Source: a virus. From it: a stretch of DNA of 29,315 nt. Positions within the stretch are counted from its first letter, which is position 1; the number at the start of each line of letters is the position of its first letter. Below the pieces are notes generated by a model that did not search any database, was not told where the DNA came from, and saw nothing but the letters and a program-made list of their open reading frames with translations. A program made the position numbers and the translations under genes. The DNA is taken from the IMG/VR virus record IMGVR_UViG_3300021185_003296, positions 1 to 29,315 of that record. One strand, given 5' to 3'. This document shows positions 347-19,674 of this stretch, piece by piece.

Positions 347-1372
347 ATGACAGCGCGATTAGGTTTATTCTTGGCGGCGCCTACTGGGGAGCCGTTTAAC
401 CAAATTAATGAAATGCCCACAGCTGGGATGAATAGTGTTCATGACTTTGCAAGTTATGTTTTATCTACTAATCCTGCAGTAAGGTTAGAAGTAAATACAT
501 CGAATGGCTCACAAATGGCTGGGCAACCTTTTGTAGACACTTATTATATAGCTGGTGCTTATACTACTCGTGTTGATAGATTTTCAACGGCAGCAGAAAC
601 ACCAAACATTTCTCAATCAACAGACAACTATAGTAGATTAAGAATTATTAGAGACACACCGTCCTTACCTACGGGTGACTCAAATAACTTACAGTATCCG
701 CTTTATCTTTATGATGATAACGGTACTACTCAACTTAGGACAATGACTCGTCAAGATTTTATTGATAGTTTTGTTACTCCCGCACTCCCAAGAGTGTTAA
801 CTTCTGCCTACTATAATGGAAGTACTGGTACTGGTAACGGTGGAATATATTTTATGACCACGAGTACTAACCCAACAAATGGTACGCTTGTTTCAAATAC
901 ACCAGTTGCAGTAAACGGTGTAGCAAACTTAGCTGCTTATACCTCGGGTGGTATACCTGAAACACAAAAGCAAAACACAAATACAAATTATTATATTGCT
1001 AAATGTACACCAGATCCAACAGCCTTTGATTTGTATGATCCTGATTTAGAACAATATGATTTGCCACTTTATTTTAATGCTGGCGATGAAACAATTAGAG
1101 TTCATACTCCGACCACGTGGGCAAACCTTCTTAATCCATTTTTAAGATATTACACGGGTAATACTGGTACTGGATATACTGTTGATTATAACTTGAGTGG
1201 CTCTGGCGCTCAGGTCGGTACAACCTATACTGACACAAGACGTACTCCAACTGGCACAGGCTATACTACTCGTTTTGTTAACGCGAACGATTATCGTACT
1301 CAGGAATTCCCAACTGGTACTGCAAGTACTATTTCAGCAAATACAAAACGACTATATGTAGAAAATATTTAA
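347..1372 (+). CDS. Probable virion structural protein (tail or fibre associated), 341 aa
   Basis: No named family is recognised. The protein is rich in Thr, Asn, Gly, Tyr and Ser and low in Lys. It has recurring short Thr-Gly stretches (NGSTGTGNGG, NTGTGYTVDYN, TPTGTGYTTRF), a composition typical of beta-rich phage fibre and surface proteins. It has no catalytic motif, signal peptide or transmembrane helix. The start follows an AAGGA ribosome site overlapping the previous stop. Position behind a late promoter and before a large enzyme island suggests a virion component, and it is the nearest candidate substrate for the tailoring enzymes. The structural assignment is inferred from composition and context. 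Confidence 0.6.
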   Translation: MTARLGLFLAAPTGEPFNQINEMPTAGMNSVHDFASYVLSTNPAVRLEVNTSNGSQMAGQPFVDTYYIAGAYTTRVDRFSTAAETPNISQSTDNYSRLRIIRDTPSLPTGDSNNLQYPLYLYDDNGTTQLRTMTRQDFIDSFVTPALPRVLTSAYYNGSTGTGNGGIYFMTTSTNPTNGTLVSNTPVAVNGVANLAAYTSGGIPETQKQNTNTNYYIAKCTPDPTAFDLYDPDLEQYDLPLYFNAGDETIRVHTPTTWANLLNPFLRYYTGNTGTGYTVDYNLSGSGAQVGTTYTDTRRTPTGTGYTTRFVNANDYRTQEFPTGTASTISANTKRLYVENI

Positions 1373-1990: not shown

Positions 1991-2692
1991 ATGCCTTATA
2001 TAGATAATGATTTGACCGCGATGGTAGACCTTTCAACCTATTGCAATGCGTCATGCCCGCAGTGTCACCGAACAGACCAAGAAGATATTTCTAAAAAGAA
2101 CTATTGGCTCCCTTTAGTTCAATGGTCGTTTGAAACCTTCAAACAAAGATTTCCAGAACAATCTCTTTATAGATACAGACAAATCATTTGCTGTGGTACA
2201 TGGGGTGATCCTATGATGAATAAAGATATTATGAAAATCATAAAATACATCTTATCAAGCAACAATAAAACAGTAGTAATTGTTAACACCAACGCAAGTC
2301 TAAGAGATGAAGATTGGTGGTGGGAACTTGGCATGATAAGTTACAAATATCATCATAGGCTTGAGGTCATATTTGACATTGATGGAGTTACACAAGAGCA
2401 GCATGCTAAATATAGGGTAGGAACAGAACTAGATAAAGTGCTAACACATATGAAAGCCTTTACTGAGTCTGGATCAACTGCTAAATGCTTTACTATCGTA
2501 TTTGAACACAACCAAGATGACGTTGAAAAAATAGGTGAATTAGCTAAAGCAAATGGAGCAAGTGCTATGTACATCCAACCTTCAAATAGATTTGATAAAA
2601 ACCCAGAGCAATTTAGATATATCCAAGAAGGAAAAATAAGACATTTAAAACCACCCACAAAATATACTGAATTTAAGGCTATAGGATTATGA
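1991..2692 (+). CDS. Radical SAM enzyme core, split from its SPASM partner (pair 1)
   Basis: A CxxxCxxC motif at C18, C22 and C25 follows a beta strand, as expected for the [4Fe-4S] cluster that cleaves S-adenosylmethionine. A CGTWGDPMMN stretch stands where the family usually has GGEP. A later VIVNTNAS strand and FDIDG match the TIM-barrel strand order. At 233 residues it holds only the core and no auxiliary-cluster domain. That domain appears to be the next gene, which overlaps by ATGA. No clear ribosome site precedes the ATG, which directly follows the upstream TAA, so translation may depend on coupling. Substrate unknown; radical SAM/SPASM enzymes commonly modify peptides or sugars. Confidence 0.85.
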   Translation: MPYIDNDLTAMVDLSTYCNASCPQCHRTDQEDISKKNYWLPLVQWSFETFKQRFPEQSLYRYRQIICCGTWGDPMMNKDIMKIIKYILSSNNKTVVIVNTNASLRDEDWWWELGMISYKYHHRLEVIFDIDGVTQEQHAKYRVGTELDKVLTHMKAFTESGSTAKCFTIVFEHNQDDVEKIGELAKANGASAMYIQPSNRFDKNPEQFRYIQEGKIRHLKPPTKYTEFKAIGL

Positions 2693-3075
2693 AAAAAATA
2701 CGTTGTTCTTTCTTTGAAAAAAATGAATTAAATATAAATCCAGATGGTCAGGTATATCCATGCTGCTTTTTTGCTAATACTCTTTTCCTAGCAAAACAAT
2801 TTGGGTATCCAAAGCAAGGCGATATAGATCTCAGAGAACAAGACAGAACCCATATACAAAACGGATTACAAAACTCTGAGTCTATAGCAGTCGGAGTAAT
2901 AGACAACAATCCAATATATAAAGAGTATGTTGAAAACGAAGCTGATTATAATTTAGATAATAAAAGCATTAGTGAAATAATAAACTCTGAATGGTATCTT
3001 AAACTTGAAGAGTCTCGTAAAACTTGGGATACCGCTCCTCAAGTATGCAAAAATTGGTGCACTGTTAATGACTAA
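2689..3075 (+). CDS. Stand-alone SPASM-like iron-sulfur protein (pair 1)
   Basis: A 128-residue protein with C6, then a NPDGQVYPCC stretch (C25, C26), and C120 and C124 in a terminal CKNWC motif. This Cys...G-x-x-x-PCC...CxxxC layout resembles the SPASM auxiliary-cluster domain normally fused to the C-terminus of a radical SAM core. Here it is a separate polypeptide whose ATG overlaps the stop of the core gene by ATGA, so equimolar production is likely. It has no SAM-cluster CxxxCxxC motif of its own. It probably supplies the auxiliary [4Fe-4S] cluster and part of the substrate pocket in trans to the preceding protein. Confidence 0.75.
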   Translation: MKKIRCSFFEKNELNINPDGQVYPCCFFANTLFLAKQFGYPKQGDIDLREQDRTHIQNGLQNSESIAVGVIDNNPIYKEYVENEADYNLDNKSISEIINSEWYLKLEESRKTWDTAPQVCKNWCTVND

Positions 3076-3766
3076 CATTATTGATTTCTATAATCGTTCA
3101 TATGGAATACCCGGCTTCGAACATCATAGAAAGCCTGGTACTAGAAATATCAATATGGATATAACTAATAGGTGTACTCTAGCATGCGTAACATGCGAAA
3201 GACAATATCGTATTCAATTAAAGGGAAAGGTTGTGGGAGAAGTTTTATCAGTGTCTGATTTTGAAAAATACATACCGTGGTTTGACCACTTTGATTTTTG
3301 TGGACAAGTTTCAGATCCTAGTATGCATCCTGAGTTTGATAAGATTTTAGAGCTTGTAGCAAAAAACGATAAGAGCGCTGATGTTCATAACACTGCTTCT
3401 CAAAGACCGGAAAGATGGTATAGAAAAATGTTTGATATATCATCGGGTACTAGAATAGCGTGGCGGTTTGGAATAGATGGATTACCAAAAGATTCTCATA
3501 AATATCGGACAAGGCAAGATGGTCAAAAGTTATTTGATATGATGTCTATTGCTGCAAAATACAATCCCAAATTTGAAATCTATTGGAAGTATATTGTTTT
3601 TAATTACAATCAATATGATATAGAAGAATGTAAACAAATGGCTAAAGACATGGGAGTAATATTTAATACTGTTAACTCACGAAGACATCCACCAGGCTTG
3701 AGACCAGAAGAAGAATTGACTTCAAAGCTTGCTATGGATAATACATATTTTTATCCAAATGACTGA
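3068..3766 (+). CDS. Radical SAM enzyme core, split from its SPASM partner (pair 2)
   Basis: The start is set at the ATG at 3068, giving MTNIIDFYN and an 8-base overlap with the previous stop. A longer in-frame reading would run back through the upstream gene. The 232-residue protein has CxxxCxxC at C36, C40 and C43. FCGQVSDPSMHPEF occupies the GGEP position, the same non-canonical style as pair 1 (G-x-x-x-DP), so the two cores probably arose by duplication. No SPASM cysteines lie in its C-terminal half; they are in the next gene. Likely partner and substrate class as for pair 1. Confidence 0.85.
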   Translation: MTNIIDFYNRSYGIPGFEHHRKPGTRNINMDITNRCTLACVTCERQYRIQLKGKVVGEVLSVSDFEKYIPWFDHFDFCGQVSDPSMHPEFDKILELVAKNDKSADVHNTASQRPERWYRKMFDISSGTRIAWRFGIDGLPKDSHKYRTRQDGQKLFDMMSIAAKYNPKFEIYWKYIVFNYNQYDIEECKQMAKDMGVIFNTVNSRRHPPGLRPEEELTSKLAMDNTYFYPND

Positions 3767-4100
3767 AAAATTTGATCCAATATGTATGACTAAAACTGAA
3801 GGTATGGCTCATACCTGCTCAGGACATTTGATTCCGTGTTGCCATCTTGATTACATTACCAATAGCGATCCCGCATATAGAGAACTACTTAAAGACAAAT
3901 TAAAACTATCAAACAATGATAGTGTGGAAGATATATTAACTTCTGACGAATGGTTAAATTTTGGGCGAGCCGTTTTTAAAGGATTAAATGAAGGAATAGA
4001 ATATGCTCCTACATCTTGTCAAAGAAAATGTGGTCCAAAAGATGGTTGGGATCCTAATCGTACGTCTAAGCTAGACGAGTATCCTAAAGGTTGGAAATGA
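3759..4100 (+). CDS. Stand-alone SPASM-like iron-sulfur protein (pair 2)
   Basis: The start is the ATG at 3759, overlapping the previous stop by 8 bases; the longer reading is a shadow of the upstream frame. The 113-residue protein has C9, C20, a SGHLIPCC stretch (C27, C28), and C87 and C91 in CQRKC, the same spacing logic as the pair 1 partner. It ends in a Lys/Trp/Pro-rich tail. It is interpreted as the detached auxiliary-cluster domain of the second radical SAM core. That both pairs show the same split argues against a sequencing error or random frameshift. Confidence 0.75.
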   Translation: MTEKFDPICMTKTEGMAHTCSGHLIPCCHLDYITNSDPAYRELLKDKLKLSNNDSVEDILTSDEWLNFGRAVFKGLNEGIEYAPTSCQRKCGPKDGWDPNRTSKLDEYPKGWK

Positions 4101-5197
4101 AACATTATTGCGCAGCACCTTTTACCCATATATCTATTGACCCACGAGGCGTGCTGCTTCCATGCTGTAGATATAAAAAACCTTTATCAAACTTAGATGA
4201 AGAAAGAATAGACGAAGGTTGGAATAATCAAAACTTTCAGGACTTAAGAAATCAATTTTTAAATGGTGAAAAGCCCGAGGCTTGTTCTGACTGTTGGCAT
4301 GCCGAGGAGTCTGGTAACCAAAGTTTACGAAGTGTTATTAATGGTTGGGCTCGTAATAAAAAGTTTGATTCGCCAATAGTAGAAGACGGTCCTGTTTATT
4401 ATGAATTTAAAACAACTAATGTGTGTAATCTTAAATGCCGTATGTGTGGTTCTTTTAATTCAAGTCAAATAGCAAAAGAAACAGAGTCAGTAGAAACTCG
4501 CAAACATTATTTAAAGCATAAATTAATAGGTACACACCATGAGCCTATCATATATGAATGGCTTAAAAAAGCTGATTATATTCTCTTTGCAGGTGGTGAA
4601 CCATTTGTAAACGAAGAAATTAAAAAGGTTATGACTTATATTGATGAGCAAAACCTAAATGCAATAAGAACATTAATGGTAACAAACGGAACTTATTGGA
4701 ATGAAAAATTTGTACGCCAATTAAAATCATTACTTGATTTAGATATAAGAATTAGCTTAGATGATATATACGAAAGAAATAATTATCAAAGGGAAGGTTC
4801 TGACTTTGATGTAATTGAACAAAACTTTATTAAGTTTTCAAAAAACTTCTATGGAAAGGTGACGTTTAACTGTACTTTGAATTGGTATAATATATATCAT
4901 ATAGATGAATTTTTAGAATATGCTGACGACTTTAATACACCCGTGTCAATACAGTATGTAGAAAACCCGTCATATTTAAACATTAGTAATTTACCTATAG
5001 CTGTAAAAGAGGTTATATGTAATAAGTTTAAAGATACAAAGGACGAAAGAATTAAAAAGATTATAAGACGAATGATGATTGATGGTGAAGATCAATTAGA
5101 TAAGTTTTGGAAACACATAAAATATTATGATAAACTGCGAGGCAACGATTTTAAAGTTGCTTTCCCAGAGTGGAGTAAGGTTCTTGAGAGCGTGTAA
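4097..5197 (+). CDS. Radical SAM protein with N-terminal auxiliary-cluster (twitch/SPASM-like) region
   Basis: The ATG at 4097 overlaps the previous stop by ATGA; the 366-residue product begins MKHYCAAPF. C5, C23, C24, C63 and C66 form a SPASM/twitch-like set (CAAPF, LLPCC, CSDC) in the first 70 residues. The SAM-cluster motif CNLKCRMC follows at C110, C114 and C117, with a canonical AGGEPF downstream and a VTNGTYW strand. The auxiliary region thus comes before the core, the reverse of the usual order. It resembles proteins annotated as twitch-domain radical SAM in marine phages (recollection of the family, not a search). Reaction and substrate unknown; a peptidyl or sugar substrate is plausible. 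Confidence 0.85.
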   Translation: MKHYCAAPFTHISIDPRGVLLPCCRYKKPLSNLDEERIDEGWNNQNFQDLRNQFLNGEKPEACSDCWHAEESGNQSLRSVINGWARNKKFDSPIVEDGPVYYEFKTTNVCNLKCRMCGSFNSSQIAKETESVETRKHYLKHKLIGTHHEPIIYEWLKKADYILFAGGEPFVNEEIKKVMTYIDEQNLNAIRTLMVTNGTYWNEKFVRQLKSLLDLDIRISLDDIYERNNYQREGSDFDVIEQNFIKFSKNFYGKVTFNCTLNWYNIYHIDEFLEYADDFNTPVSIQYVENPSYLNISNLPIAVKEVICNKFKDTKDERIKKIIRRMMIDGEDQLDKFWKHIKYYDKLRGNDFKVAFPEWSKVLESV

Positions 5198-6233
5198 CGC
5201 ACCATTTAATAACATGTACATTACACTTCAAGGTAGGGTTTCTCCTTGTTGGAAGCTGCCTGGTTTTTGTGAAACCTGGAGCAAAGATAAATCTTTAATG
5301 GATATATGGCAAGGTGATGTATTCCAAAAATATAGAGATGCGTTAAGTCAAAATGTATTTTTAGACCGATGCATGGAATGTAAAAGAGATATTGATAATG
5401 ATGTCTGGCCATTAGCAAAAGCTTATAAAAAGTTTCCAGTAAATACCATGCCATCTCTTATGGAAATAGAGTTAAGTAACCAATGTAATCTTGAATGTAT
5501 TATGTGTAATGGTAATTTAAGTTCCGGTATTAGAAAAAACAGAGATAATCTTCCACCATTACCACAGATATTTGATGATTCGTTTTTAGAACAAATGCGA
5601 GAGTTTATTCCACACCTTACTGAATTAAGAGTAAATGGCGGTGAACCTTTTGCTCAAAAAATATTATTAGATTTACTTGACGTTGTAGCTGAAATTAAAC
5701 CAGAACTTAAAATCAATATTGCAACTAATGGTACTGTTTATAATAAAAGAGTTCAAGGAATACTTGATAAGTGTAATATCCATTTAAACATTAGTATTGA
5801 TAGTTTAATTCCAGAACGATATGAAGAAATAAGAGTAAATGGTAACTTTGATACGCTAATGAAATATTTTGATATATTTAAAGATTATTGCCATACAAAT
5901 AAACGAAGCTTATCTATCATGGTTAACCCTATGAATATGAACTGGGATGAAATGATAGAGTTCGTAAGGTTTACTGATAAACATCAATGTAACCTTTGGT
6001 ACAATACTATATTATATCCAACCCATGTTACACTTAAACATTTGCCTGGTGCAAAACTTGCTGCGATTATTAACGACATGAAAAAAGAGCTAAATACAAT
6101 TATAGGTTTTAGAAACTATGACAAAGCAAAACATCTAATAAGCCAATTAGAAAATTGGTGCTTAGATTCTTTAGATGGAACTCAAATTGATTTATATACT
6201 GATGGAGGGAGTTTGATTAATGCAACCCGATAA
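5184..6233 (+). CDS. Second radical SAM protein with N-terminal auxiliary-cluster region
   Basis: The start is taken as the TTG at 5184, because GGAG lies eight bases upstream and the product (MRACNAPFNNMYI) then aligns with the start of the preceding paralogue (CAAPFTHISI). The 349-residue protein has C4, C22, C29, C63 and C66 in the N-terminal region. Core CNLECIMC follows at C101, C105 and C108, then NGGEPF and an IATNGT strand. It overlaps the preceding gene by 14 bases. Same permuted architecture as its neighbour, hence a tandem duplicate that has diverged; one PCC has become PCW. Function unknown beyond radical SAM chemistry. Confidence 0.82.
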   Translation: MRACNAPFNNMYITLQGRVSPCWKLPGFCETWSKDKSLMDIWQGDVFQKYRDALSQNVFLDRCMECKRDIDNDVWPLAKAYKKFPVNTMPSLMEIELSNQCNLECIMCNGNLSSGIRKNRDNLPPLPQIFDDSFLEQMREFIPHLTELRVNGGEPFAQKILLDLLDVVAEIKPELKINIATNGTVYNKRVQGILDKCNIHLNISIDSLIPERYEEIRVNGNFDTLMKYFDIFKDYCHTNKRSLSIMVNPMNMNWDEMIEFVRFTDKHQCNLWYNTILYPTHVTLKHLPGAKLAAIINDMKKELNTIIGFRNYDKAKHLISQLENWCLDSLDGTQIDLYTDGGSLINATR

Positions 6234-6828
6234 TATTATATTTGTAAAACATGGTACTAAATATAACGCTGAACATGTAAATAGATTACGTGACCAACTC
6301 ATGGAATATTATAAGTGTGCTTATATGTGTTATACCGACGATCCAATTGGAGTTGAAATTGAAACAATTCCATGCTTTGAGAAACCAACTTTAAAATATT
6401 GGTGGAACAAGCTTGCAATGTTTAGTAAAGACTTTCCAGTTAAAGGTAAATGTTTATTCTTTGATTTAGATATGGATATACAATCTGATCCAACCGATTT
6501 TATTAAATGGAACGGGTTAACTATACTTAAAGACTACTGGAAAGACGACTTGTACATGGCTCCACATGCCTATGATGTGCATATAAATAGTTCTGTAATT
6601 ACATGGACCGCGGGCGAACAAAATCATATATGGGAACACTTCTTATCTAATAAAGATTATTTTATGAGAAAGTACAAAGGTATCGATAGATTTTTAGTTC
6701 ACGAAGGTTTAAAATTTAATACGTTTGAACATGGACTTGTAAACAGCGTGGCTAATCCTTCTGAATGGAAAGCGCCAATTGATATGTATAATGGAATGAA
6801 ATATAATGTACAAAGAAGAAGTTTATAA
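6220..6828 (+). CDS. Glycosyltransferase, GT-A type, 202 aa
   Basis: The core shows CLFFDLDMDIQ, a hydrophobic strand running into a DxDxD cluster typical of the metal and nucleotide-sugar site of GT-A enzymes. It is followed by a conserved-looking SSVITWTAGEQ stretch and a late KAP segment. The N-terminal IIFVKHGTKYNAEHVNRLRDQL resembles the first beta-alpha unit of this fold. The gene starts 14 bases inside the end of the upstream radical SAM gene, with GGAGG upstream. Its place between radical SAM genes and a methyltransferase suggests it glycosylates the same substrate. Donor and acceptor are not predictable. Confidence 0.75.
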   Translation: MQPDNIIFVKHGTKYNAEHVNRLRDQLMEYYKCAYMCYTDDPIGVEIETIPCFEKPTLKYWWNKLAMFSKDFPVKGKCLFFDLDMDIQSDPTDFIKWNGLTILKDYWKDDLYMAPHAYDVHINSSVITWTAGEQNHIWEHFLSNKDYFMRKYKGIDRFLVHEGLKFNTFEHGLVNSVANPSEWKAPIDMYNGMKYNVQRRSL

Positions 6829-7453
6829 AAACGCTTTAGAAATTATCCGACAAATATACGAAGAGTCAAAGTATAATCCAGATATGGATTTATACCGAAG
6901 CTTAGATATTATCACCGCAACTAATGATGCTCAATTAGCCAGCAAAGAATGGCTTGTTAATAATTTAATCAAATACCTAGACACCAAACATCTTACTTTT
7001 CCTTTAAGAGATGTTTTAATAATGGGTAGTTGGTATGGATTAACAGGCGCTATTTTACGTCAACATATTAGCGACGATGTTAAAATATGGAATGTAGATT
7101 CTGATCCTTTGTGTGCAGACTTTGGATATAAACTTCAACACCACGAAAATACTATTCACGTAACTGATGATGCTATTGAATATTATTTTGATAGAGCGGA
7201 TGCTTTCCAATTAATTATTAATACAAGTTGTGAACATATGGAGGAAGAAGATATTCGTATGATATTGAACTCAAAACCTATTGATACTATAGCTTGTTTT
7301 CAAAGCAACAATTATCATAACGAAGCAGAACATATTAATACACACAACAGTTTAGACGAGTTTGTTGAATCATTACAACTAGCTAGCGTATATTATAAAG
7401 GAGAAATGAAGCCCTCTGAGGACTATACAAGGTATATGGTGATAGGAATATGA
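6806..7453 (+). CDS. Class I SAM-dependent methyltransferase-like protein
   Basis: A 215-residue protein with DVLIMGSWYGLTGAIL as a Rossmann motif I (GxxxG after a strand) and WNVDSDPLCADFG as the acidic strand that binds the SAM ribose. A VTDDA turn and a LIINTSCEHM strand (motif IV position) follow. The fold is that of class I methyltransferases, although the glycine motif is looser than usual. The start lies 23 bases inside the glycosyltransferase gene, and the stop overlaps the next ATG by ATGA. A small-molecule, sugar or peptide methyltransferase is plausible; target unknown. Confidence 0.65.
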   Translation: MYKEEVYKNALEIIRQIYEESKYNPDMDLYRSLDIITATNDAQLASKEWLVNNLIKYLDTKHLTFPLRDVLIMGSWYGLTGAILRQHISDDVKIWNVDSDPLCADFGYKLQHHENTIHVTDDAIEYYFDRADAFQLIINTSCEHMEEEDIRMILNSKPIDTIACFQSNNYHNEAEHINTHNSLDEFVESLQLASVYYKGEMKPSEDYTRYMVIGI

Positions 7454-9159
7454 GCAGGGTAATATTTACAACATACGACGACATTGATCATGTGGATGAT
7501 CGGTGGGGTGCGAACGTACACCAAATAGACCAAATTGAAGAATACAAAGATCGATTATTACTAAACAAAAGAATATATGCTGATGAAATTGGCGCCGACT
7601 TTAAGTTTTACTATAACACTATGAAAGACTTTGAGGTTGATGCTGGGTTTGATTTTGCAAAGGTAAATTTATATAAGCATTACTTAACAGCTCAATTGGC
7701 TGAAGAGTACGATGAAGTAATGTATGTTGATATGGATGTTTTATTTAATACTGAGCTTAATGTATTTGAAGAGCTTGATTTAGAAAAAGGTATTCATATC
7801 AAAGACCAAGATGATAAGATCGTAAATAAAAATATTAAAGAAATAGTATTTCAATCGGTTGGGCAGCGTAGTCCTACAATTAAATACCATATTACTAAAG
7901 ACTTGTTAGATGGCCAAGATAACCATGTAATGAATACTGGTATTATGATAGGTAAATCTAAACACATAAAACAAATTCATTACTATGATCGTATGATGGA
8001 AGCAATAGAAAAGCTTAATGAAATTAAATCAAATAACCTCGAAAGAGAAGATGGATCTCATTTAAGAGTTTATTATTATCCAAACAACGAAAGCATATTC
8101 TCTTATATCATGGAAAAATATGATGTACCATATGTATTAATGGATAAAGAATGGCATTATATTATTGCTGAGCCAGAAGAAATTAATTTAGATGATATTA
8201 AAATAGCTCATTTTGTTAACAAAAAGTTTAATACATTTTTTGAAGATAAAACAAAACTTATCTATTCAATTTATATTGAGATACCTGATGAGCGTTTAGA
8301 TAATCCAAAAGGTCGATCCGACGATCCCGTTAATAAAAGTCTACGAACAAAACAACGTTTAAGTAATTATGAAAAACAATTAATTGAGAACCATAAAGCT
8401 TATGCTGAAAGCGTGGGTGCGACTTATATTAACTTTCGTAGAGACGATGAGTATGAAGAGTTTTTTAATAGGTTTCCAGATTTGTCTGAGTATGATATTA
8501 TTAACTTATACAAGGTTCACCTTTTAGATAAGCTTACCCACACTGCTGATTTGGTTTTGTATATAGATTATGATGTAGTGTTTAACAAAAATATTGATGC
8601 ATTTAATTTCTTAAAGGCAGAGACATGTCTTTGTTGCGACATATCGTCAGCAGAAGATTCTGGTGTTACCCCTCGAGTTCGTGGTTATTTTGAAAAGTAT
8701 GATAAAGACTTTCGTAATCCACAGGCTAAATATTGGAACTGCCATGCTTTGTTGCAAGAGGAAGACCTTGATGGAGACAACAAAGTATTTAACACTGGTA
8801 TTATGATGGCTAGCCGGAAAGTAATGGATCGTTTAAACTACTTTGATGGTATTGATGATATTCTTGAAACAATGAAAGAGCTCAAGGAATTTTCGATGTA
8901 TCCTCCAGCCATACAAAAATCATTTGGTTATGACAACGAAACTATTATGTCTTATAAAGTTCAAATGAACAATGTCTCAGTATATCCATTGTCTCAAACG
9001 TGGCATTATAAACATGACGCCAATAAGATTAAAACATATGATAAAAATACTACTGAATTTGAACAAGAAAAAATAAGCTATAATAGTTTAGTAAAAGAAC
9101 ACAACGTAATTATGACACACTTTATTTCTAAGAACTTTGGTTTAATTTTTCAAGGATAA
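7450..9159 (+). CDS. Tandem-domain glycosyltransferase (two GT-A units), 569 aa
   Basis: Two homologous halves are visible. The first has YVDMDVLF (DxD at residues 94-96) and NHVMNTGIMIGKSK. The second has YIDYDVVF (DxD at about 373-375) and NKVFNTGIMMASRK. Each half also ends in a Trp-His-containing stretch (DKEWHYII; QTWHYKHD) and an IAHFVNKKF or MTHFISKNF tail. The order strand-DxD, NTGIM, WHY, HF resembles GT8-like retaining transferases. Both DxD motifs are intact, so both halves may be active, perhaps adding two sugars. The ATG overlaps the methyltransferase stop. Confidence 0.8.
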   Translation: MSRVIFTTYDDIDHVDDRWGANVHQIDQIEEYKDRLLLNKRIYADEIGADFKFYYNTMKDFEVDAGFDFAKVNLYKHYLTAQLAEEYDEVMYVDMDVLFNTELNVFEELDLEKGIHIKDQDDKIVNKNIKEIVFQSVGQRSPTIKYHITKDLLDGQDNHVMNTGIMIGKSKHIKQIHYYDRMMEAIEKLNEIKSNNLEREDGSHLRVYYYPNNESIFSYIMEKYDVPYVLMDKEWHYIIAEPEEINLDDIKIAHFVNKKFNTFFEDKTKLIYSIYIEIPDERLDNPKGRSDDPVNKSLRTKQRLSNYEKQLIENHKAYAESVGATYINFRRDDEYEEFFNRFPDLSEYDIINLYKVHLLDKLTHTADLVLYIDYDVVFNKNIDAFNFLKAETCLCCDISSAEDSGVTPRVRGYFEKYDKDFRNPQAKYWNCHALLQEEDLDGDNKVFNTGIMMASRKVMDRLNYFDGIDDILETMKELKEFSMYPPAIQKSFGYDNETIMSYKVQMNNVSVYPLSQTWHYKHDANKIKTYDKNTTEFEQEKISYNSLVKEHNVIMTHFISKNFGLIFQG

Positions 9160-9167
9160 ATAGACAT

Positions 9168-9884
9168 ATGCATAATACAACAAAACTCATAATTAACCAC
9201 GCGCTTTGCCACGTCTTACTTATTCCTGCATTTATGTATGGAGAAGCTTGGATGTTTTTGGCAGGGTTTTTGTGGTGGCAAATTATTGTCATTGTGGCTA
9301 TATCTGGCGGCTACCATAGATACTATTCACATAAAAGTTACGAGTGTAGTAAACTACATCAAATTATTATAAATGTTCTTGGAATATTTTCAGGCGCAGG
9401 TCCTGCTCTTACTTGGGCTGCTGTACACAAACAACATCACGCCACAAGCGATACATTAAACGACCCTCATTCATATCACCATAAAGGTAAGTTAGCTGTA
9501 TATTTAAATACGTGGGGATATGATTCTAAAATTAAAAGAAAATATATTAAAACATTGTGGCGAGACCCTATACTTAAATGGTTTCTAAAACATTATTTTA
9601 AATTAAATATAGCTATTGTATTGTTACTTACTTTAATACATCCTTTGCTTATGATATTTGGTTATGCTATTCCTGTTATACTTGCATTCCATGGTTATGG
9701 GATATTAAATATACTTGGCCACAAAGATGGGCCTACTAATTCTGCTATTGCTAATGTTTTAACCGCGGGAGAAGGATGGCATTTAAACCATCACAAAAAG
9801 CCTGGTAGTTATAAAATAGGAAACAAATGGTGGCAATTTGATCCTACCGCGTATTATATTACTCTTATGTTTAAAGGAAAGTAA
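9168..9884 (+). CDS. Membrane fatty-acid (acyl) desaturase, compact
   Basis: All three histidine boxes of the membrane di-iron desaturases are present: HRYYSH (50-55), HKQHH (87-91) and HLNHH (205-209). The ILGHKDGPTNS loop ahead of the third box is also seen. Hydrophobic stretches at about 8-46 and 145-180 supply the membrane spans. At 238 residues it is shorter than typical bacterial delta-9 enzymes of about 300 or more. Expected activity is insertion of a double bond into an acyl chain at the cytoplasmic membrane, using O2 and an electron donor not encoded here. It could alter host membrane lipids or an acyl group on another product. Confidence 0.88.
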   Translation: MHNTTKLIINHALCHVLLIPAFMYGEAWMFLAGFLWWQIIVIVAISGGYHRYYSHKSYECSKLHQIIINVLGIFSGAGPALTWAAVHKQHHATSDTLNDPHSYHHKGKLAVYLNTWGYDSKIKRKYIKTLWRDPILKWFLKHYFKLNIAIVLLLTLIHPLLMIFGYAIPVILAFHGYGILNILGHKDGPTNSAIANVLTAGEGWHLNHHKKPGSYKIGNKWWQFDPTAYYITLMFKGK

Positions 9885-10562
9885 ATGAAATTAAGATATA
9901 AAAATGAAGATCGCTTCGCAGAAACTATGGGATACGACGGATTTGAAGCCGATAAGGAAGAACTTAAAGCTATTTACAATAGAATTAAGCCTGAATGGGA
10001 AGGGCATAATAAAATCGGTATGGATGATGATCAAATTTTATATCATATTAGCTATGACGACAACATGGTACTATGGGATGAGATTTTCCAAGTCGTAAAA
10101 AGAATAGGCGAAAACTGTGGTGTAAAAATTATTTGGGAAGAAGTTAAACATGTAATGAAATTCACGTTTATGTATACTCAACCACGTGGTATTCTTCATC
10201 CGCATACTGCTCACAACTTAAGAGCTTTATCTGCTTTTAATATTCCGCTTATTGGCAAAACAGAGATTATTTTATACGACAGAAAAAAAGGTAAAAACCT
10301 AATGTTTCCAGGTAGTGATACATATGAGTATGCACGACATGAATACATTAACCCATGTTTCTTAAACGTAAATAAGTTACATGGTCTTGTGAATAACCAA
10401 GATACTGAACGCGTGATTTTAAAATGTCATATGCTTATTACACCTATTGAAACTATGATTGAAGCAACAGAAGGTGAAGAAACAATTAAACAATTACCAT
10501 ACGCGCCGTGGTTGGAAACTAAGTTCAAACAAAAGTTATGGTTAGCTAAGAGCTCTACATAA
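9885..10562 (+). CDS. Aspartyl/asparaginyl beta-hydroxylase-like cupin protein
   Basis: The segment around residues 104-125 (HPHTAHNL, then SAFNIPL) resembles the metal-binding strand of AspH-type 2-oxoglutarate oxygenases. LHGLVNN with H166 and a following Arg near 176 resembles the distal His/Arg pair. The usual HxD is not obvious: the region reads H105-P-H107-T-A-H110, so metal binding may differ or be lost. Length is 225 residues. An AAGGA ribosome site precedes the ATG, which directly follows the desaturase stop. It belongs with the other oxygenase-like genes of the island. Family call is from motif pattern only. Confidence 0.55.
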   Translation: MKLRYKNEDRFAETMGYDGFEADKEELKAIYNRIKPEWEGHNKIGMDDDQILYHISYDDNMVLWDEIFQVVKRIGENCGVKIIWEEVKHVMKFTFMYTQPRGILHPHTAHNLRALSAFNIPLIGKTEIILYDRKKGKNLMFPGSDTYEYARHEYINPCFLNVNKLHGLVNNQDTERVILKCHMLITPIETMIEATEGEETIKQLPYAPWLETKFKQKLWLAKSST

Positions 10563-11131
10563 TGGCTTATCCGGCTGAAATCAATGTGCTTAAAATGGAT
10601 TCTACAAATGAATCTATTTTTGTTCATAAGTTGAAAGAGCTTGAACAAACAGACAAAAGCAAAAATAAAGATTGGTGGCCAAACCTTATTGTAAATTATA
10701 AAAATTACGATCAATGGTATTTAGCTTTCCACAAAGAAGAAATTATATCTTTTTCTTGTGTTCAATTGTTTGGTAAAAGTACTGCCCGGCTTGCGACTAG
10801 ATTGTGGAATGGCGTAAAGAAAACTGGATTAGAAAGAGGAGTTATTTTAAATGAAGTATCTCCAGCTATGATTATGATTGAAATGCAATTAAAAGATTAT
10901 AAAAATTATAATGTTTTCTTTTCAATGCAACGGTTAAATAGAAGAAAGCACCTTGAAAAATTAGCTGAGAAGTTAAATATTAAATTAGGAAGATCCTTTA
11001 AATTAAACGATGGTATGCATCAAACATGTCCGTATGATGTTATTGATTGTTGGCAAAGTACAATATCTGAAAAAGAATTAAACTTGCCTGAAATGCCAAT
11101 TGAAGAATGGAAAGAGAAGTATTGTGACTAA
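10562..11131 (+). CDS. Unknown protein, possibly GNAT acyltransferase-like, 189 aa
   Basis: Not confidently recognised. The middle (DQWYLAFHKEEIISFSCVQLF, then ARLATRLW) loosely matches the strand-turn-strand and Arg-rich helix of GNAT-fold acyltransferases, but the pyrophosphate-binding Q/RxxGxG/A signature is not visible. The C-terminal third has no known motif. The start overlaps the previous stop (TAATG). The stop overlaps the next start, a GTG in GTGACTAA. It sits between two oxygenase-like genes, so it is probably part of the same pathway; an acyl transfer step next to a desaturase would be sensible but is speculative. Confidence 0.5.
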   Translation: MAYPAEINVLKMDSTNESIFVHKLKELEQTDKSKNKDWWPNLIVNYKNYDQWYLAFHKEEIISFSCVQLFGKSTARLATRLWNGVKKTGLERGVILNEVSPAMIMIEMQLKDYKNYNVFFSMQRLNRRKHLEKLAEKLNIKLGRSFKLNDGMHQTCPYDVIDCWQSTISEKELNLPEMPIEEWKEKYCD

Positions 11132-11747
11132 AAGCTTAATTCAAAAAACAAAAAGAGCACGTGTAAATGGACCAGGTCCAAAGAGAAACGAAATGCTTAC
11201 CTTTGCTAAAATTGGTGACGTTGATCCTGAATTGTTAGAACAACTTAAGTCTATATTATTAGAAAATCCACAAAACGATTTAGGTGGAGATGGATACAAT
11301 ATTTCTCAGCAATGTGATATTGAAAACGTATTTAATGCTGCTGATTCTTACAGGCAAGTTCTTATTCAAAAATCAATTCATGACGAAAATACTGCTTCAG
11401 AGTTTGACTATTCTGACTATGTATATGATGTAAAAGTTCCTTGGTTTAAATACATTTATAGATTAAGGTTATCTCATATGGGTCCTGGTCATACAATCAA
11501 CTGGCATATTGATACTGATACCAGTGTTATGTGTAGAGCTCAAATTTGTTTAAATGAAAATGATTCTGTGTTTAAATTCAAAACAAAGTCTGGTGTTGAA
11601 TCATTTACTATGAAGCCTGGTGAAATGTGGTTTATTAATACGGGTTGGCCACACAGTGTTGAAGGTGGAAAAACAGAAAGGTCTGTAGCAATATTTGGAT
11701 TTGAATATAGGGATTACAATGGAAATACTAACTTATTGCGCTCATAA
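11124..11747 (+). CDS. 2-oxoglutarate/Fe(II) oxygenase, AspH-like
   Basis: The start is set at GTG 11124, overlapping the previous stop; a longer reading would need translation back inside the upstream gene. The 207-residue product has a facial triad H128-x-D130 (WHIDTDT) and distal H177 (GWPHSVEGG). R186 in RSVAIFGF is the expected 2-oxoglutarate anchor. The spacing of about 49 residues between triad halves and the strand pattern fit the aspartyl/asparaginyl beta-hydroxylase group. It would hydroxylate a peptide or small-molecule side chain. The first 20 residues are basic and likely a flexible tail. Confidence 0.78.
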   Translation: MTKSLIQKTKRARVNGPGPKRNEMLTFAKIGDVDPELLEQLKSILLENPQNDLGGDGYNISQQCDIENVFNAADSYRQVLIQKSIHDENTASEFDYSDYVYDVKVPWFKYIYRLRLSHMGPGHTINWHIDTDTSVMCRAQICLNENDSVFKFKTKSGVESFTMKPGEMWFINTGWPHSVEGGKTERSVAIFGFEYRDYNGNTNLLRS

Positions 11748-12312
11748 TATAGAAGTAGATCATAACAAGATAGAACAAGAAATCTTATCAATACCTCTTA
11801 CTTCTTATCACTATGACAAATTTAGAAATACATATATACTTCCTTTGTTTAATCCTGCAGGCAAAACAGGTAAAGTAGATATTAATCTTGACGGAAATAT
11901 GAAATGGACTATGGATTTACCAAATGTTCAAAAAGCGTTTAGTCCAATTTTAAATGAGCTACCAGGAAGGTTTACTATACTCTATACTCCGCCCAATAAA
12001 GAAATGAATATACATTTAGATTGCAAAGAAGCGGAGGTTGGTACACGTCAATATAAGTGGCGTTACGTGGTTAAAGGTGATTTAAAAGGATTATATTTTT
12101 TAAATGAAAATATGGAAAAGGTTTATCCTAACCAAGGCGAAAGAAGTTATGTAATGGATGGAGGGCATCCACATTCTATTGATATTTCTGATAAACCAAA
12201 ATGGACTTTATGTATAGGATCTCCTTGGCGAGATAATTTACCTAGCGATTTAGATACATCAAAGTCATATATAATTAGTAGACCTAAAATAAAGGACCAG
12301 TGGAGTGTATGA
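11719..12312 (+). CDS. 2-oxoglutarate/Fe(II) oxygenase-like protein, AspH-type
   Basis: The start is the ATG at 11719, with GGGA upstream and a 29-base overlap with the previous gene. The 197-residue product has H99-x-D101 (IHLDCKE) and a distal GGHPHSIDI with H150 and H152. A KWTLCIGSPW strand follows, where an Arg anchor would be expected but a Lys is seen. It is related in pattern to the preceding oxygenase, so the two may be old duplicates with different substrates. The possible Arg-to-Lys change makes cosubstrate binding uncertain. Confidence 0.65.
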   Translation: MEILTYCAHNIEVDHNKIEQEILSIPLTSYHYDKFRNTYILPLFNPAGKTGKVDINLDGNMKWTMDLPNVQKAFSPILNELPGRFTILYTPPNKEMNIHLDCKEAEVGTRQYKWRYVVKGDLKGLYFLNENMEKVYPNQGERSYVMDGGHPHSIDISDKPKWTLCIGSPWRDNLPSDLDTSKSYIISRPKIKDQWSV

Positions 12313-13081
12313 AAAAGTAATGAATGAATGCTTTTATCTCCAAGAAGATATAGATTTAGACGAACAAGCATTCATAAACATATCATCTCAATTTGGAAAG
12401 TTGTGGAATGAGGAAGACCATCTTATAGCTAAAGAACCTTTGGGTGGCGAGGTTGTACAATGGACATCAAAAAACAAATTCATTAGGATGAGTATTCCTT
12501 GGCATGCCGATAACTCAGCTAGTAAAGAATACAAATATCCACTTAGATCATTTTACGCAGTATCCATACCAGACTCAGAAGATTCTAAATTATTTTTCTT
12601 AGATACTACTACGGCCTTTGAAATGATGAGTAAAGACAGACAACAATACTTAAGAGATTGTTCTATAATAGTTGGTGATAATCCAACGTTTAAACAATCT
12701 GGAAAATGGACCTTTGAAGATCCTTGGGTAGAACCATTCACAAAAATACATCCTATTACTGGACGAGAAAATATTAATTATGGATGTTTAGCGTTAGCCA
12801 GTGATGTGTTTGGATTAAGCCCAGACGAAGGTTACTCTGGAACTGAATCATATAACAAAGCCATATTACACCCCGATGGTTCTAAATGGTCTGATAAAGA
12901 AATATCAAAACTGTTTGAAGAAATGATAAATAAAGTTGGGGTATATGAACACAAATGGAAAGAAAAGCAATTCTTAGTTATGAACAATTGGGTTGGATTG
13001 CATTATAAACAAACCACTAAAATCATAGACCAAGAACGGTTAATCTGGAGAAGGACAATATTTCAACAATGGCATATATAA
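12305..13081 (+). CDS. TauD/TfdA-family 2-oxoglutarate dioxygenase
   Basis: PWHADNS provides H67-x-D69, and NNWVGLHYK provides H233. The closing ERLIWRRTIFQQWH has the Arg pair that anchors 2-oxoglutarate in TauD-like enzymes. The total of 258 residues is usual for that family. The start is a GTG at 12305 with AGGA eight bases upstream, overlapping the previous stop by 8 bases; an ATG at 12320 is an alternative five codons in. Family members hydroxylate small molecules such as taurine, carnitine precursors or free amino acids. Its subfamily differs from the AspH-like neighbours, suggesting a separate oxidation step. Confidence 0.82.
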   Translation: MYEKVMNECFYLQEDIDLDEQAFINISSQFGKLWNEEDHLIAKEPLGGEVVQWTSKNKFIRMSIPWHADNSASKEYKYPLRSFYAVSIPDSEDSKLFFLDTTTAFEMMSKDRQQYLRDCSIIVGDNPTFKQSGKWTFEDPWVEPFTKIHPITGRENINYGCLALASDVFGLSPDEGYSGTESYNKAILHPDGSKWSDKEISKLFEEMINKVGVYEHKWKEKQFLVMNNWVGLHYKQTTKIIDQERLIWRRTIFQQWHI

Positions 13082-13548
13082 CAACAATGGTTTCCACGGC
13101 AGGACCGGATGGAGACTCCGACTTTTTTAGCGACTATATAAACAATCCTAGTAAGCGCTATCAAGATTGGTCAGCACCTGTACTACCAGCAACCTTTTGG
13201 GAAAACTACGACTCCGTTTACTTGAGCTACAAAGATGCTAATAAAATTCTTTTTAGATCAAAATATGTCGACTCAAATAACGATATGTTTGTTACTCAAG
13301 TTTGGGAAAGCCAAGCTATTAGAGAACAATTTCTAATTGATGTTGACCATGCTCAATTTGAAGCAAACCTAAGCCATGGAATAACGCGTAACGATTACGA
13401 AGCTAACACATCAGTAATTGAAAGTGTTATTACAGACGTTTTAAACGCCGGCGATTATATCATTCAAATTTGTGCAGACGAGTATAGACGCCCAGGAATG
13501 GTTATTGGCGATCCCTTAAAAGGTGAAACAACATTTACTGTGGAATAA
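13069..13548 (+). CDS. Unknown protein closing the rightward operon, 159 aa
   Basis: Family not recognised. The ATG overlaps the end of the TauD-like gene by 13 bases. The protein is acidic (many Asp and Glu), soluble-looking and without signal or membrane segments. It has two predicted strand regions near YDSVYLSY and GDYIIQICADEY. One cysteine is present and no metal motif is seen. Its last codons overlap the end of the convergent minus-strand gene by 14 bases. No function is assigned. Confidence 0.65.
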   Translation: MAYITTMVSTAGPDGDSDFFSDYINNPSKRYQDWSAPVLPATFWENYDSVYLSYKDANKILFRSKYVDSNNDMFVTQVWESQAIREQFLIDVDHAQFEANLSHGITRNDYEANTSVIESVITDVLNAGDYIIQICADEYRRPGMVIGDPLKGETTFTVE

Positions 13549-14011
13549 CATTTCCAACTATGTGAGTGCGGATAAACTGTTCTCGATTTGCGTTGAGGGC
13601 AGTATGATATAAAGTAGTATCTACTAAATAAACTGATCCATCGGCTGGAAGTTTATAGACTTTACCGTCAATAATAAACATGCATCGTTCATTTGACGTT
13701 AGTGGAATATGAATCCTTGGCGTCAAGTCAATGTGATATGAATAACAGGTTCCTTTAATCATTTTCATAACACGGGTTCTATGCATCTTATATTTTGATA
13801 ATAATGAATATGTGTATTGCATATCGTCGTATAATGGTACAATGTATTCTGACTCATCAGCTCTTAAGTCATAAGTCTTTCCACAAGCTCCATCATAATC
13901 TCCTTCAAAGGCTCCTTGTAATGGAAACTGAGCAGAAACTTTTTTATTCTCTAATTCTTGAATAATCCATTCAATATCGCATTCACCAACTTTTTGTATT
14001 ACATCTTTCAT
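13535..14011 (-). CDS. Aspartyl/asparaginyl beta-hydroxylase-family oxygenase
   Basis: A clear AspH pattern is present: YHIDLTPRIHIPL gives H93-x-D95 with R99 close behind. Then come VYLVDTTLYHTALN with distal H136 and EQFIRTHIVGNV with R148 for 2-oxoglutarate. The length of 158 residues equals a bare catalytic cupin domain. It is the last gene of the leftward operon; its ATG overlaps the stop of the upstream SDR-like gene by ATGA. It likely hydroxylates Asp or Asn residues or a related small molecule. This is the most canonical AspH member in the island. Confidence 0.85.
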   Translation of the reverse strand: MKDVIQKVGECDIEWIIQELENKKVSAQFPLQGAFEGDYDGACGKTYDLRADESEYIVPLYDDMQYTYSLLSKYKMHRTRVMKMIKGTCYSYHIDLTPRIHIPLTSNERCMFIIDGKVYKLPADGSVYLVDTTLYHTALNANREQFIRTHIVGNVIPQ

Positions 14012-14445
14012 ATTGATATCGTTAGCTCCTTTACTCTATATTTTTGTTTAGTAACCCATAAAATCGTTTCAATAACATAATCTAAATCCATTTTTGGAGT
14101 ATCAACGTGTGCACATCTTTCAGTATCAAAGTATCCAAAGTTTAAACAAGTAACATTATGGCCCATGTTATATAATTGTTCGTTAGCTGCTCTTAAAGCT
14201 TTTTTCTCAATAGCATATTCAAATGCGTTTTCCCTACCAACACCATTATAGTCAGAAGCTCTTGAACCTAGACTAATTACTCTTTTACCGAGTTTGGCTG
14301 CCTTGAATAAGTTTTCAACTTGGGTATATCCATCATGTTTATTATTAATGAATATGTCGCACTCTTCTAAAGTATCAACAATTGGAAACAATTCAGCTAA
14401 TTCTTTGCCAAGACCTCGTCTTGTACCATTTACGTAGTATTTCAT
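14008..14445 (-). CDS. Miniature SDR-like NAD(P)-dependent protein, 145 aa
   Basis: The product shows the short-chain dehydrogenase set in order: GTRRGLG (GxxxGxG, residues 7-13), FINN (N34, N35), S61 after a strand (ISLGSR), and Y77-x-x-x-K81 (YAIEK). A helix and a final strand follow. Classic SDRs are about 250 residues, and the spacing between motifs here is strongly compressed, yet the catalytic Ser-Tyr-Lys candidates survive. It is flanked by oxygenases with ATGA overlaps on both sides. It may oxidise or reduce an alcohol or keto group made by them, or may only bind the cofactor. Confidence 0.72.
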   Translation of the reverse strand: MKYYVNGTRRGLGKELAELFPIVDTLEECDIFINNKHDGYTQVENLFKAAKLGKRVISLGSRASDYNGVGRENAFEYAIEKKALRAANEQLYNMGHNVTCLNFGYFDTERCAHVDTPKMDLDYVIETILWVTKQKYRVKELTISI

Positions 14446-15038
14446 AATTTATATCTCAGAGAAATTCCTGTTTTAATTCCTGACAAAACTCCTGTTGTAT
14501 GAATATATTTATTGTTAAATATCATGGCTGATCCTGGTGTAAAAGAATAAGCTTCACCGGTTAAACCAAACCACTGTTCTTTTGGTGCCCACTTTATATA
14601 TTCATATAGGTTATCATCTATAGGTTTATCTGTAAGTCCTTCGCAATCATAGTCATATGGTTTTCCCGCTACACCCGTATTAACTTGAAATTCCATAACA
14701 TCTGCGTGCAAACACCACGTAACACTGTCCTTATGATATTTTTGGTCGAATATAACAAGAGATGCATTGGGATCTGTAGTGTGTAATGGTACTACAACGT
14801 TAACAGTTTCTTTCCATTCTTCTCTATGGTCTGTATGTGGCAAGTATGGCTTTGTATGTTGGTAATAGTTGCCGCCAACTCTTTCCCACCCACTCATAAG
14901 TTCATCGATGATTTTTGTAGCAGGACCTGGATTTGCTTTTTTCATCGTGGGAGTATCATATTCATCTATAGAATTATACTCATCAAGCAAGCTTTGTATT
15001 TCTTCGTCAGTAAATATGTTTTGATAATATTTTTTCAT
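14442..15038 (-). CDS. 2-oxoglutarate/Fe(II) oxygenase (2OG-FeII_Oxy type)
   Basis: PYLPHTDHREEW supplies H68-x-D70. A long insert lies between two VVPL/FDQ strands, and PGSAMIFNNKYIHTTG supplies H180. GISLRYKL ends the protein with R195 as cosubstrate anchor. N-terminal FTDEEIQSLLDEY resembles the helix seen in prolyl-hydroxylase-like and phytanoyl-like members. Length is 198 residues. A GAGGAAATAA ribosome site precedes the ATG, which lies inside the end of the upstream oxygenase gene. The triad is intact, so it is probably active; substrate unknown. Confidence 0.8.
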   Translation of the reverse strand: MKKYYQNIFTDEEIQSLLDEYNSIDEYDTPTMKKANPGPATKIIDELMSGWERVGGNYYQHTKPYLPHTDHREEWKETVNVVVPLHTTDPNASLVIFDQKYHKDSVTWCLHADVMEFQVNTGVAGKPYDYDCEGLTDKPIDDNLYEYIKWAPKEQWFGLTGEAYSFTPGSAMIFNNKYIHTTGVLSGIKTGISLRYKL

Positions 15039-15567
15039 TTATTTCCTCAAAGCTTTTTCCGTATAACGAAATTCTTAAATTATATCTTTTGCCGTGTCCT
15101 GTATTATCTACCATGTGCATAGTTGAAGTATTTATTAGAGCAGCTTTATATCCATCTAAATTGTAAATCTTTCCGTTGTAATCAAAGGTTGTTGGAGCTC
15201 TTTCTGTATTTCTAAAGTCGTACATAAAAGCAGCTTTTGGAGCACCAACTGCAGCAGCTCCATCTATATGCCACTTTAATATTTTATCAGCTTTAGTAAT
15301 TAAAATAAAACAATTAAAGCCAACATCTAAATCATAATAGTTTATAAAGTCTTTAGCAATGACGTTAAGAGTTTTGTCTTTGTATTCCTTGAGCTCAGGA
15401 TTGTTTTCAACCCACTCGTCATGTCCATATATAGTCGTAACTTTTGGAACTGATCCCTGGTTATCTCTATAAAAAATGTTTTCAACATAACCTTTGAAAT
15501 GCTGATAATATTCTTCTATTTTGGAATCATCTAAAACATAGTTATCTATTTTCGTATAAGGTAACAT
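15007..15567 (-). CDS. 2-oxoglutarate/Fe(II) oxygenase-like protein, AspH-type
   Basis: LKWHIDGAA gives H100-x-D102, NTSTMHMVDN gives H151, and RYNLRISLYG gives R161 and R165 as candidate 2-oxoglutarate ligands. This is the usual AspH-like order and spacing. The N-terminal 95 residues carry no recognised motif. Length is 186 residues. A GGAGG ribosome site precedes the ATG. The gene overlaps its neighbours by 22 bases upstream and 32 bases downstream, an unusually long overlap that points to strong packing rather than simple ATGA coupling. Confidence 0.75.
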   Translation of the reverse strand: MLPYTKIDNYVLDDSKIEEYYQHFKGYVENIFYRDNQGSVPKVTTIYGHDEWVENNPELKEYKDKTLNVIAKDFINYYDLDVGFNCFILITKADKILKWHIDGAAAVGAPKAAFMYDFRNTERAPTTFDYNGKIYNLDGYKAALINTSTMHMVDNTGHGKRYNLRISLYGKSFEEINEKILSKHIY

Positions 15568-16229
15568 TCTTTTTCCTCCAACGAAGGTGTACGAAATTGT
15601 GTATAGTCTATTTTAATCTCAGTACCACCTGCCATTTGATCTAATACTAACTTATAAAGAGTTATGTTATTTTCTTTAGTCATGTGGCAATACCTTAAAT
15701 CCATATACTTACGACGTATTTCTAAAGCCGTTTCACCCCAAGCACTATCTTCTAACCTTGATATGTTTATGATAGGTGTTGCCTCAAAACCAAAATCCCA
15801 GTTTGCGCCATACATAAATTTGACGTCAGGTCGGGTTTCTAAAATTGAAGCTTTAAGAAGTCGAACATAATGTGATTCCTTTTCTTCATTATATAAATGT
15901 TTATGCCACATGCTGTAAGCAACGTATTCGTCATCAGTACCCATCCCAGAAGTATTTTCTACAAATGGTATGTGAAATCCATTGATTGATATTCTTCCTG
16001 GTCTTGGGAATACAAAAATGATATTGTCGTGTTGAGAATGATTGTCTATAAAAACTTTGTACATGTAATATGGATCACAGCCTTTTGTGCTGTAATTTGT
16101 AATATCGTAATTTTGTCTAAGAAGACTAACCCAACTGCTACCTGCGTTAGGTAATAAAGGATGTTTTAGTAAGTTATAATTTAAAACATCTTCATAAGAA
16201 AAGCTATCACCAAAAATACCTAAGTTCAT
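15546..16229 (-). CDS. SGNH/GDSL-like hydrolase
   Basis: The N-terminus reads LGIFGDSFS, placing the nucleophile candidate S9 in a GDS block I. SSWVSLLRQNY and the ITNYSTKGCDPYYM stretch match the helix and block II of SGNH enzymes. A DLRYCHMTKENN segment near the C-terminus could give the catalytic His. Length is 227 residues. Such enzymes act as esterases or O-acyl transferases on sugars and lipids. No ribosome site is obvious, and the ATG follows the nitroreductase stop by only three bases, so coupling is likely. It fits a pathway handling acylated glycans. Confidence 0.7.
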   Translation of the reverse strand: MNLGIFGDSFSYEDVLNYNLLKHPLLPNAGSSWVSLLRQNYDITNYSTKGCDPYYMYKVFIDNHSQHDNIIFVFPRPGRISINGFHIPFVENTSGMGTDDEYVAYSMWHKHLYNEEKESHYVRLLKASILETRPDVKFMYGANWDFGFEATPIINISRLEDSAWGETALEIRRKYMDLRYCHMTKENNITLYKLVLDQMAGGTEIKIDYTQFRTPSLEEKECYLIRK

Positions 16230-16232
16230 TTA

Positions 16233-19504: not shown

Positions 19505-19674
19505 TGGTATTTTCAAAGCATAACATACAAGTTACCAATAAAGGTAAATACACATCAGATGCAGTACATGTCGACGATGATGGTAAAAATACAGTAGTAA
19601 ATATGTGCCCTGAGTTTGATACTGTTGATGAAGTAGTGGAATGGATTCAAACTCATATGGAGGATGATGCGTGA
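19504..19674 (+). CDS. Small protein of unknown function, 56 aa
   Basis: A short frame begins with an ATG overlapping the hydroxymethylase stop (TAATG) and ends in a TGA overlapping the next GTG (GTGA). It begins MVFSKHNIQVTNKGKY and ends HMEDDA, with a VDDDGKNTVVNM turn. The double overlap and lack of any other use of this 170-base stretch support it as a real gene. The GGAGG that serves the aldolase start lies inside its last codons. No family is recognised; the sequence could form a small beta-hairpin plus helix domain. Confidence 0.7.
   Translation: MVFSKHNIQVTNKGKYTSDAVHVDDDGKNTVVNMCPEFDTVDEVVEWIQTHMEDDA

Follow-up and report, generated by a model that had tools for sequence, protein, structure and literature searches.

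Radical SAM enzymes with a C-terminal SPASM or twitch domain, such as BlsE, SuiB, SkfB, anSME, MoaA and BtrN, combine a catalytic core, which carries the cluster motif CX3CX2C and adopts a partial TIM barrel, with a domain containing the cysteines for auxiliary iron-sulfur clusters, which normally reside in the same chain as the core. The function of these auxiliary clusters has been called largely enigmatic (PMC10470005, PMC9012708), and a search of the open-access literature did not reveal a SPASM enzyme built from two subunits. In contrast to the described enzymes, each of which is a single chain, core and auxiliary domain are encoded by two genes in the viral locus investigated here and in 84 of the 108 cores scored for this property. 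We consider it probable (about 0.7) that each of the two core/SPASM pairs of this locus constitutes one two-protein radical SAM/twitch enzyme, which likely modifies a sugar or glycan. A natural two-subunit version would allow the separate reconstitution, titration, swapping and reading of each cluster alone and may enable biochemists to attach or detach the domain of the second iron-sulfur cluster as desired.

The window, a stretch of 29,315 nucleotides (positions 1 to 29,315 of IMG/VR record IMGVR_UViG_3300021185_003296), is a fragment of a T4-like marine virus. It encodes a gp45-like clamp at 26414-27082 with 43% identity to cyanophage S-CAM9, and comparison of bases 1-25000 with 50,697 phage records did not identify a near nucleotide relative. 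Positions 1991 to 4100 contain four tightly packed genes in the order core1, SPASM1, core2 and SPASM2 (Table 1), and the open reading frames confirm the preliminary description of two cores of about 232 residues, each followed by a protein of 113-128 residues. The overlap between core1 and SPASM1 comprises 4 bases (ATGA), with AGGA located closely 5' of the SPASM1 ATG, and the one between core2 and SPASM2 comprises 8 bases (ATGACTGA). Since short overlaps are also found at other junctions of the operon (8 bases between SPASM1 and core2, 4 bases between SPASM2 and the next gene and 4 bases at 7450-7453), overlap alone is no mark of a split gene.

Table 1. Genes of the radical SAM operon and its surroundings in the window.
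Feature	Position	Strand	Basis
STR6, T/S/N-rich protein	347..1372	+	family in 27 loci, conserved near island
core1, radical SAM catalytic subunit, 233 aa, without auxiliary-cluster domain	1991..2692	+	PF04055 31.1 bits; CNASCPQC, CGTWGDP
SPASM1/twitch subunit, 128 aa	2689..3075	+	PF13186 34.8 bits; C6, C25, C26, C120, C124
core2, second divergent radical SAM core, 232 aa from ATG at 3068	3068..3766	+	CTLACVTC, CGQVSDP; 43% identity to Mosig gp84
SPASM2/twitch subunit, 113 aa	3759..4100	+	SPASM1-like five-cysteine pattern; 35% identity to Mosig gp85
Fused radical SAM protein, N-terminal twitch domain	4097..5197	+	NF033640 282.9 bits (cut-off 170)
Second fused N-terminal-twitch radical SAM protein	5127..6233	+	NF033640 148 bits, slightly under cut-off 170; PF04055 46.2, PF13186 32.8 bits
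GT4, glycosyltransferase-like neighbour	6220..6828	+	phrog_1962
MTx, class-I-methyltransferase-like neighbour	6806..7453	+	sequence motifs; no significant Pfam or NCBIfam match
GTdbl, two-domain GT8-like glycosyltransferase	7450..9159	+	PF01501 21.6 bits (cut-off 24.3)

The relationship of both pairs to radical SAM enzymes is reflected in their profile matches and in the conservation of their cysteines. Core1 and SPASM1 score above the Pfam cut-offs (29.5 bits for PF04055 and 21.5 bits for PF13186); core2 (19.2 bits) and SPASM2 (16.7 bits) score below them, and their assignment relies on homology, which for core2 includes its relationship to core1, and on conserved cysteines. The CX3CX2C motif that is characteristic of the superfamily is formed by C18, C22 and C25 in core1 and by C36, C40 and C43 in core2. 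The cluster cysteines and the sequence CGTWGDP of core1 are invariant across 19 aligned relatives, and CGQVSDP of core2 is nearly invariant in the cultured Pelagibacter phage Mosig EXVC030M and in a second metagenome contig (L001). The use of GxxGDP and GxxxDP motifs by the cores, which had been noticed in the preliminary description, is thus real but bears no relation to the split, since fused bacterial homologues contain CGNYGD or CGGYGE at the position of CGTWGD in core1, and the motif marks the family instead. Similarly, the proposed identical splitting of two duplicates is correct with respect to the split of both pairs, but core1 and core2 share 27% identity and fall into separate clades, and they thus represent two distant families rather than recent duplicates. 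Both small proteins carry the auxiliary cysteines of SPASM/twitch domains, with five residues that are kept in 80-81 of 81 homologues of SPASM1 and in 20-21 of 21 homologues of SPASM2. Because only five cysteines are conserved, compared to the about seven needed in the two-cluster SPASM subgroup, the pattern fits a single auxiliary cluster of the twitch type.

Directly downstream, at 4097-6233, reside two fused twitch-first radical SAM genes, the second of which may start at TTG 5184, so that both domain orders of the superfamily are found in one operon. These NF033640 proteins share the superfamily and similar twitch cysteines with the split pairs. However, they are fused and place the twitch domain first, whereas in the pairs a core gene is followed by a separate SPASM gene, and the NF033640 scores of core1 (29.5 bits) and core2 (21.7 bits) remain far below the cut-off of 170.

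The expected architecture of the assembled enzyme is illustrated in an AlphaFold2 model of a fused homologue (L012; pLDDT 94, pTM 0.92), which was obtained from an alignment containing fused and separate sequences. A partial TIM barrel is seen in this model, which represents the homologue and not the window's own chains, and both domains together match SuiB (Z 20.3), BlsE (19.3), SkfB (19.2), anSME (18.7) and MoaA (18.2), where differences in Z under 1 are to be regarded as ties. In a sequence-profile comparison, the closest relative of known structure is the cytosylglucuronate decarboxylase BlsE (E 4e-8). As the fused homologue is predicted with high confidence to be an ordinary SPASM/twitch enzyme, core and SPASM protein are most likely parts of a single enzyme. 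In such an enzyme, core and SPASM protein would be translated separately, with probable translational coupling. The core would bind the SAM-cleaving [4Fe-4S] cluster in its partial TIM barrel and make the 5'-deoxyadenosyl radical, and the SPASM protein, carrying a single auxiliary [4Fe-4S] cluster, would dock at the position of the C-terminal domain of ordinary SPASM/twitch enzymes. The auxiliary cluster may either position the substrate or accept an electron from the substrate radical, and the likely substrate would be a sugar or glycan of the glycosyltransferase/methyltransferase island of the phage.

A role in glycan modification is suggested by the genes surrounding the cores. The GT4 family is present in 36 of 97 loci and, among 93 loci, GT4 and MTx are each close to a core in 33 and GTdbl in 34; further recurrent neighbours include an SGNH-like gene (26 of 93, named from its sequence and belonging to no Pfam family), a carbamoyltransferase gene (20 of 93) and DegT aminotransferase genes. 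Core1 relatives with about 31-35% identity and the same cluster cysteines are found in Acidobacteria, Hyphomicrobiales, Bacteriovoracales, Paraburkholderia and Myxococcales (L068-L073), where, unlike in the window, they are single chains of 356-399 residues. Some of them have glycosyltransferase-like genes as neighbours and one has an MTx homologue, as in the virus: in a Hyphomicrobiales MAG (L069) the fused core adjoins genes resembling glycosyltransferases and a homologue of MTx (32% identity, E 7e-22), and in a Paraburkholderia isolate (L071) glycosyltransferase-like genes follow the fused homologue, with the glycosyltransferases in both cases assigned by reading their sequences. Campylobacter phage CP220 contains distant core homologues (32% identity) within a cluster of radical SAM and nucleotide-sugar-transferase genes (PMC2853527), which differ from the pairs described here as they are single chains of 326-342 residues. 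In pelagimyophage genomes, glycosyltransferases and radical SAM cassettes were located in the hypervariable host-recognition region (PMC7029224). Together with this literature, the glycosyltransferase and MTx neighbours, including those of the bacterial locus, favour glycan modification, to which we assign moderate confidence. Many loci are found away from glycosyltransferases, beside the replication genes gp46/gp47 or other genes, and the role may thus differ between loci.

An enzyme that modifies a peptide or virion protein, in a RiPP-like manner or during protein maturation, appears unlikely, although it is the most probable of the alternatives. It is in line with SuiB, SkfB, anSME and ChlB being among the top structural matches, where enzymes acting on peptides and enzymes acting on sugars reach similar Z, and with the presence of STR6 and other conserved proteins upstream in the window. 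STR6 is possibly a virion protein; its model (pLDDT 81) matches nothing in BFVD at E <= 0.001 or in the PDB at Z >= 2. Against modification of a peptide or protein argue the closest relationship by profile to BlsE and the recurrent genes for glycosyltransferases, carbamoyltransferase, SGNH-like proteins and DegT aminotransferases, and casual, non-systematic inspection did not bring a conserved precursor peptide to notice.

Whether the two halves belong together is reflected in their co-occurrence and in their evolution. Core1 and SPASM1 are found without the other pair in 54 loci, and core2 and SPASM2 in 10. The distance matrices of core1 and SPASM1 correlate with r of 0.56-0.80, compared to 0.25-0.49 when core1 is paired with core2 or with any of four families of neighbours at the same loci, and on eight loci the correlation of 0.80 between core1 and SPASM1 contrasts with 0.40 between SPASM1 and core2. 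The dN/dS relative to L001 is 0.075 for core1 and 0.166 for SPASM1, and SPASM1 shows a value of 0.14 relative to L004, as expected for purifying selection; for SPASM2 a value of 0.62 relative to L001 is based on very few changes. A pairing of SPASM1 with core2, which would correspond to a twitch-first order with about 360 residues combined, was also considered and is ruled out by the same single-pair loci and by the fused proteins L012, L013 and L030, which join core1 to a SPASM1-type domain. From the pairing, the correlated distances, the conserved cysteines, the model of the fused homologue and the signs of selection, we infer a physical association of core and SPASM protein.

The same data render it improbable that the SPASM protein is a stand-alone iron-sulfur electron carrier or scaffold common to several radical SAM cores and no fixed subunit. 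Such a carrier would be consistent with the SPASM-core-core-SPASM order in L006-L008, with a core1 in L111 (4234-4950) that is directly followed by a carbamoyltransferase gene and has no SPASM gene adjacent or elsewhere in its contig of about 10 kb, and with the report that in PapB an auxiliary cluster mediates electron transfer between molecules (PMC10470005). However, pairing proceeds by family, the distances of SPASM1 follow those of core1 better than those of core2, and in the model of the fused homologue both domains pack as one enzyme. We are similarly doubtful, if not slightly more so, about a dissociable and reusable auxiliary-cluster subunit, with cores that work with or without the SPASM protein or exchange it, in which case an iron-sulfur module that can be detached and swapped would serve the phage to tune redox properties or the scope of substrates. 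A selected two-gene enzyme, as initially suggested, appears from the sequences to be the best reading of a split that is widespread and old, where the SPASM cysteines are kept, selection is mostly purifying and the trees of core and SPASM protein correlate more strongly than those of core and neighbours.

The wide distribution of the split is illustrated in a survey of viral contigs, which, except for Mosig, are metagenomic and were clustered and gene-called by simple scripts. A scan of IMG/VR with core1 provided 39 loci, and at least 578 relatives were confirmed when an alignment of core1 served as the query, from which 79 loci were kept. Scans of viral contigs with the single core2 sequence and with a SPASM2 alignment returned few relatives besides L001, and a core2 alignment performed better, with 16 loci. 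After removal of near-duplicates, the tree comprises 114 distinct cores, 108 of which were scored as split or fused and six remained unscored. The 84 split cores include 66 of the core1 and 18 of the core2 family. The core1 of the window is part of a supported clade of four cores, all split, and the core2 clade of 22 members contains 18 split, four unscored and no fused proteins. The search for fused homologues, as proposed at the outset, identified 24; fused proteins occur among the more distant core1 relatives, including bacterial chromosomal ones, and none was found for core2. The label changes at least six times on the tree, with at least four changes forced by well-supported branches; as the tree is unrooted, these are compatible with either gain or loss of the split. 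Since the bacterial and Campylobacter phage homologues are fused, fusion is suggested to be the older state, and viral lineages appear to have split the enzyme and perhaps re-fused it, with marine viruses of the group making two proteins where bacteria make one. Two of 398 genomes of one bacterial phylum hold a close homologue, both fused, and among about 150 Pfam SPASM matches listed for 100 genomes of the same phylum none stands alone, since the three SPASM frames shorter than 160 residues all run off the end of their contig.

Neither sequencing error nor frameshift accounts for the split. It is found with identical frames in L001, whose core1 is 98% identical, and in relatives at 37-66% identity. 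In Mosig, whose genome was sequenced at 348x Illumina coverage (PMC7892664), the same core2/SPASM2 pair is encoded by gp84 and gp85 with an 8-base overlap; a search for a cultured phage with the core1 pair did not find one. Relative to core1, SPASM1 is located in the +1 frame in 35 pairs, in the -1 frame in 26 and in the same frame with an intervening stop in three, and relative to core2, SPASM2 is in the +1 frame in 10 pairs and in the -1 frame in eight. The genes most often overlap by 4 or 8 bases, but overlaps of up to about 50 bases, abutment and gaps are also seen. In the closely related contigs L006-L008 and L016, a SPASM gene is located upstream of a core, and contigs of sufficient length show the order glycosyltransferase-SPASM-core-core-SPASM. 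Separate genes in reversed order are seen most clearly at 4759-7126 of L006 (SPASM-core-core-SPASM).

It is thus very improbable that each pair acts as one gene, with programmed ribosomal frameshifting within the overlap producing a fusion. Although most pairs overlap out of frame, the mixed offsets, with +1 in some pairs and -1 in others, and the varied junctions, some of which abut or contain gaps, are not explained by any single programmed frameshift, and SPASM frames begin at start codons of their own, in most cases ATG, and may even precede a core. That sequencing or assembly went wrong, or that a frameshift recently broke a gene that is normally fused, would be in line with the fused proteins in 24 of the 114 tree rows but is next to inconceivable given the variety of overlaps and frames among 84 distinct split cores, the near-identical independent contig and the deeply sequenced cultured phage, the wholly split clades of the window, the reversed gene orders and the sisters L112 (split) and L117 (fused), which share their neighbourhood but differ by an additional linker segment in L117 instead of by one base. 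Close fused relatives one base away, which would be expected from such an error, were sought and not found, and the close relatives of both pairs are all split.

In the Mosig record, gp84 is described as putative molybdenum cofactor biosynthesis enzyme and gp85 as hypothetical protein, with no link between them, which implies that automatic annotation may miss such enzymes. A set of genes comparable to the metabolic gene run at 9168-16847 of the window adjoins the split pair of this phage. In the window, this run includes a fatty acid desaturase, a TauD-like dioxygenase and a nitroreductase, and several further proteins read like Fe(II)/2OG oxygenases. A class-I fructose-bisphosphate aldolase-like gene is located at 19671-20471 (PF00274, 23.9 bits). 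Finally, a match to the T4 DNA alpha-glucosyltransferase at 20759-22183 (PF11440, 34.7 bits) and a C5-cytosine DNA methylase at 23650-24855 (PF00145, 66.9 bits) suggest that the virus may modify its own DNA as well.
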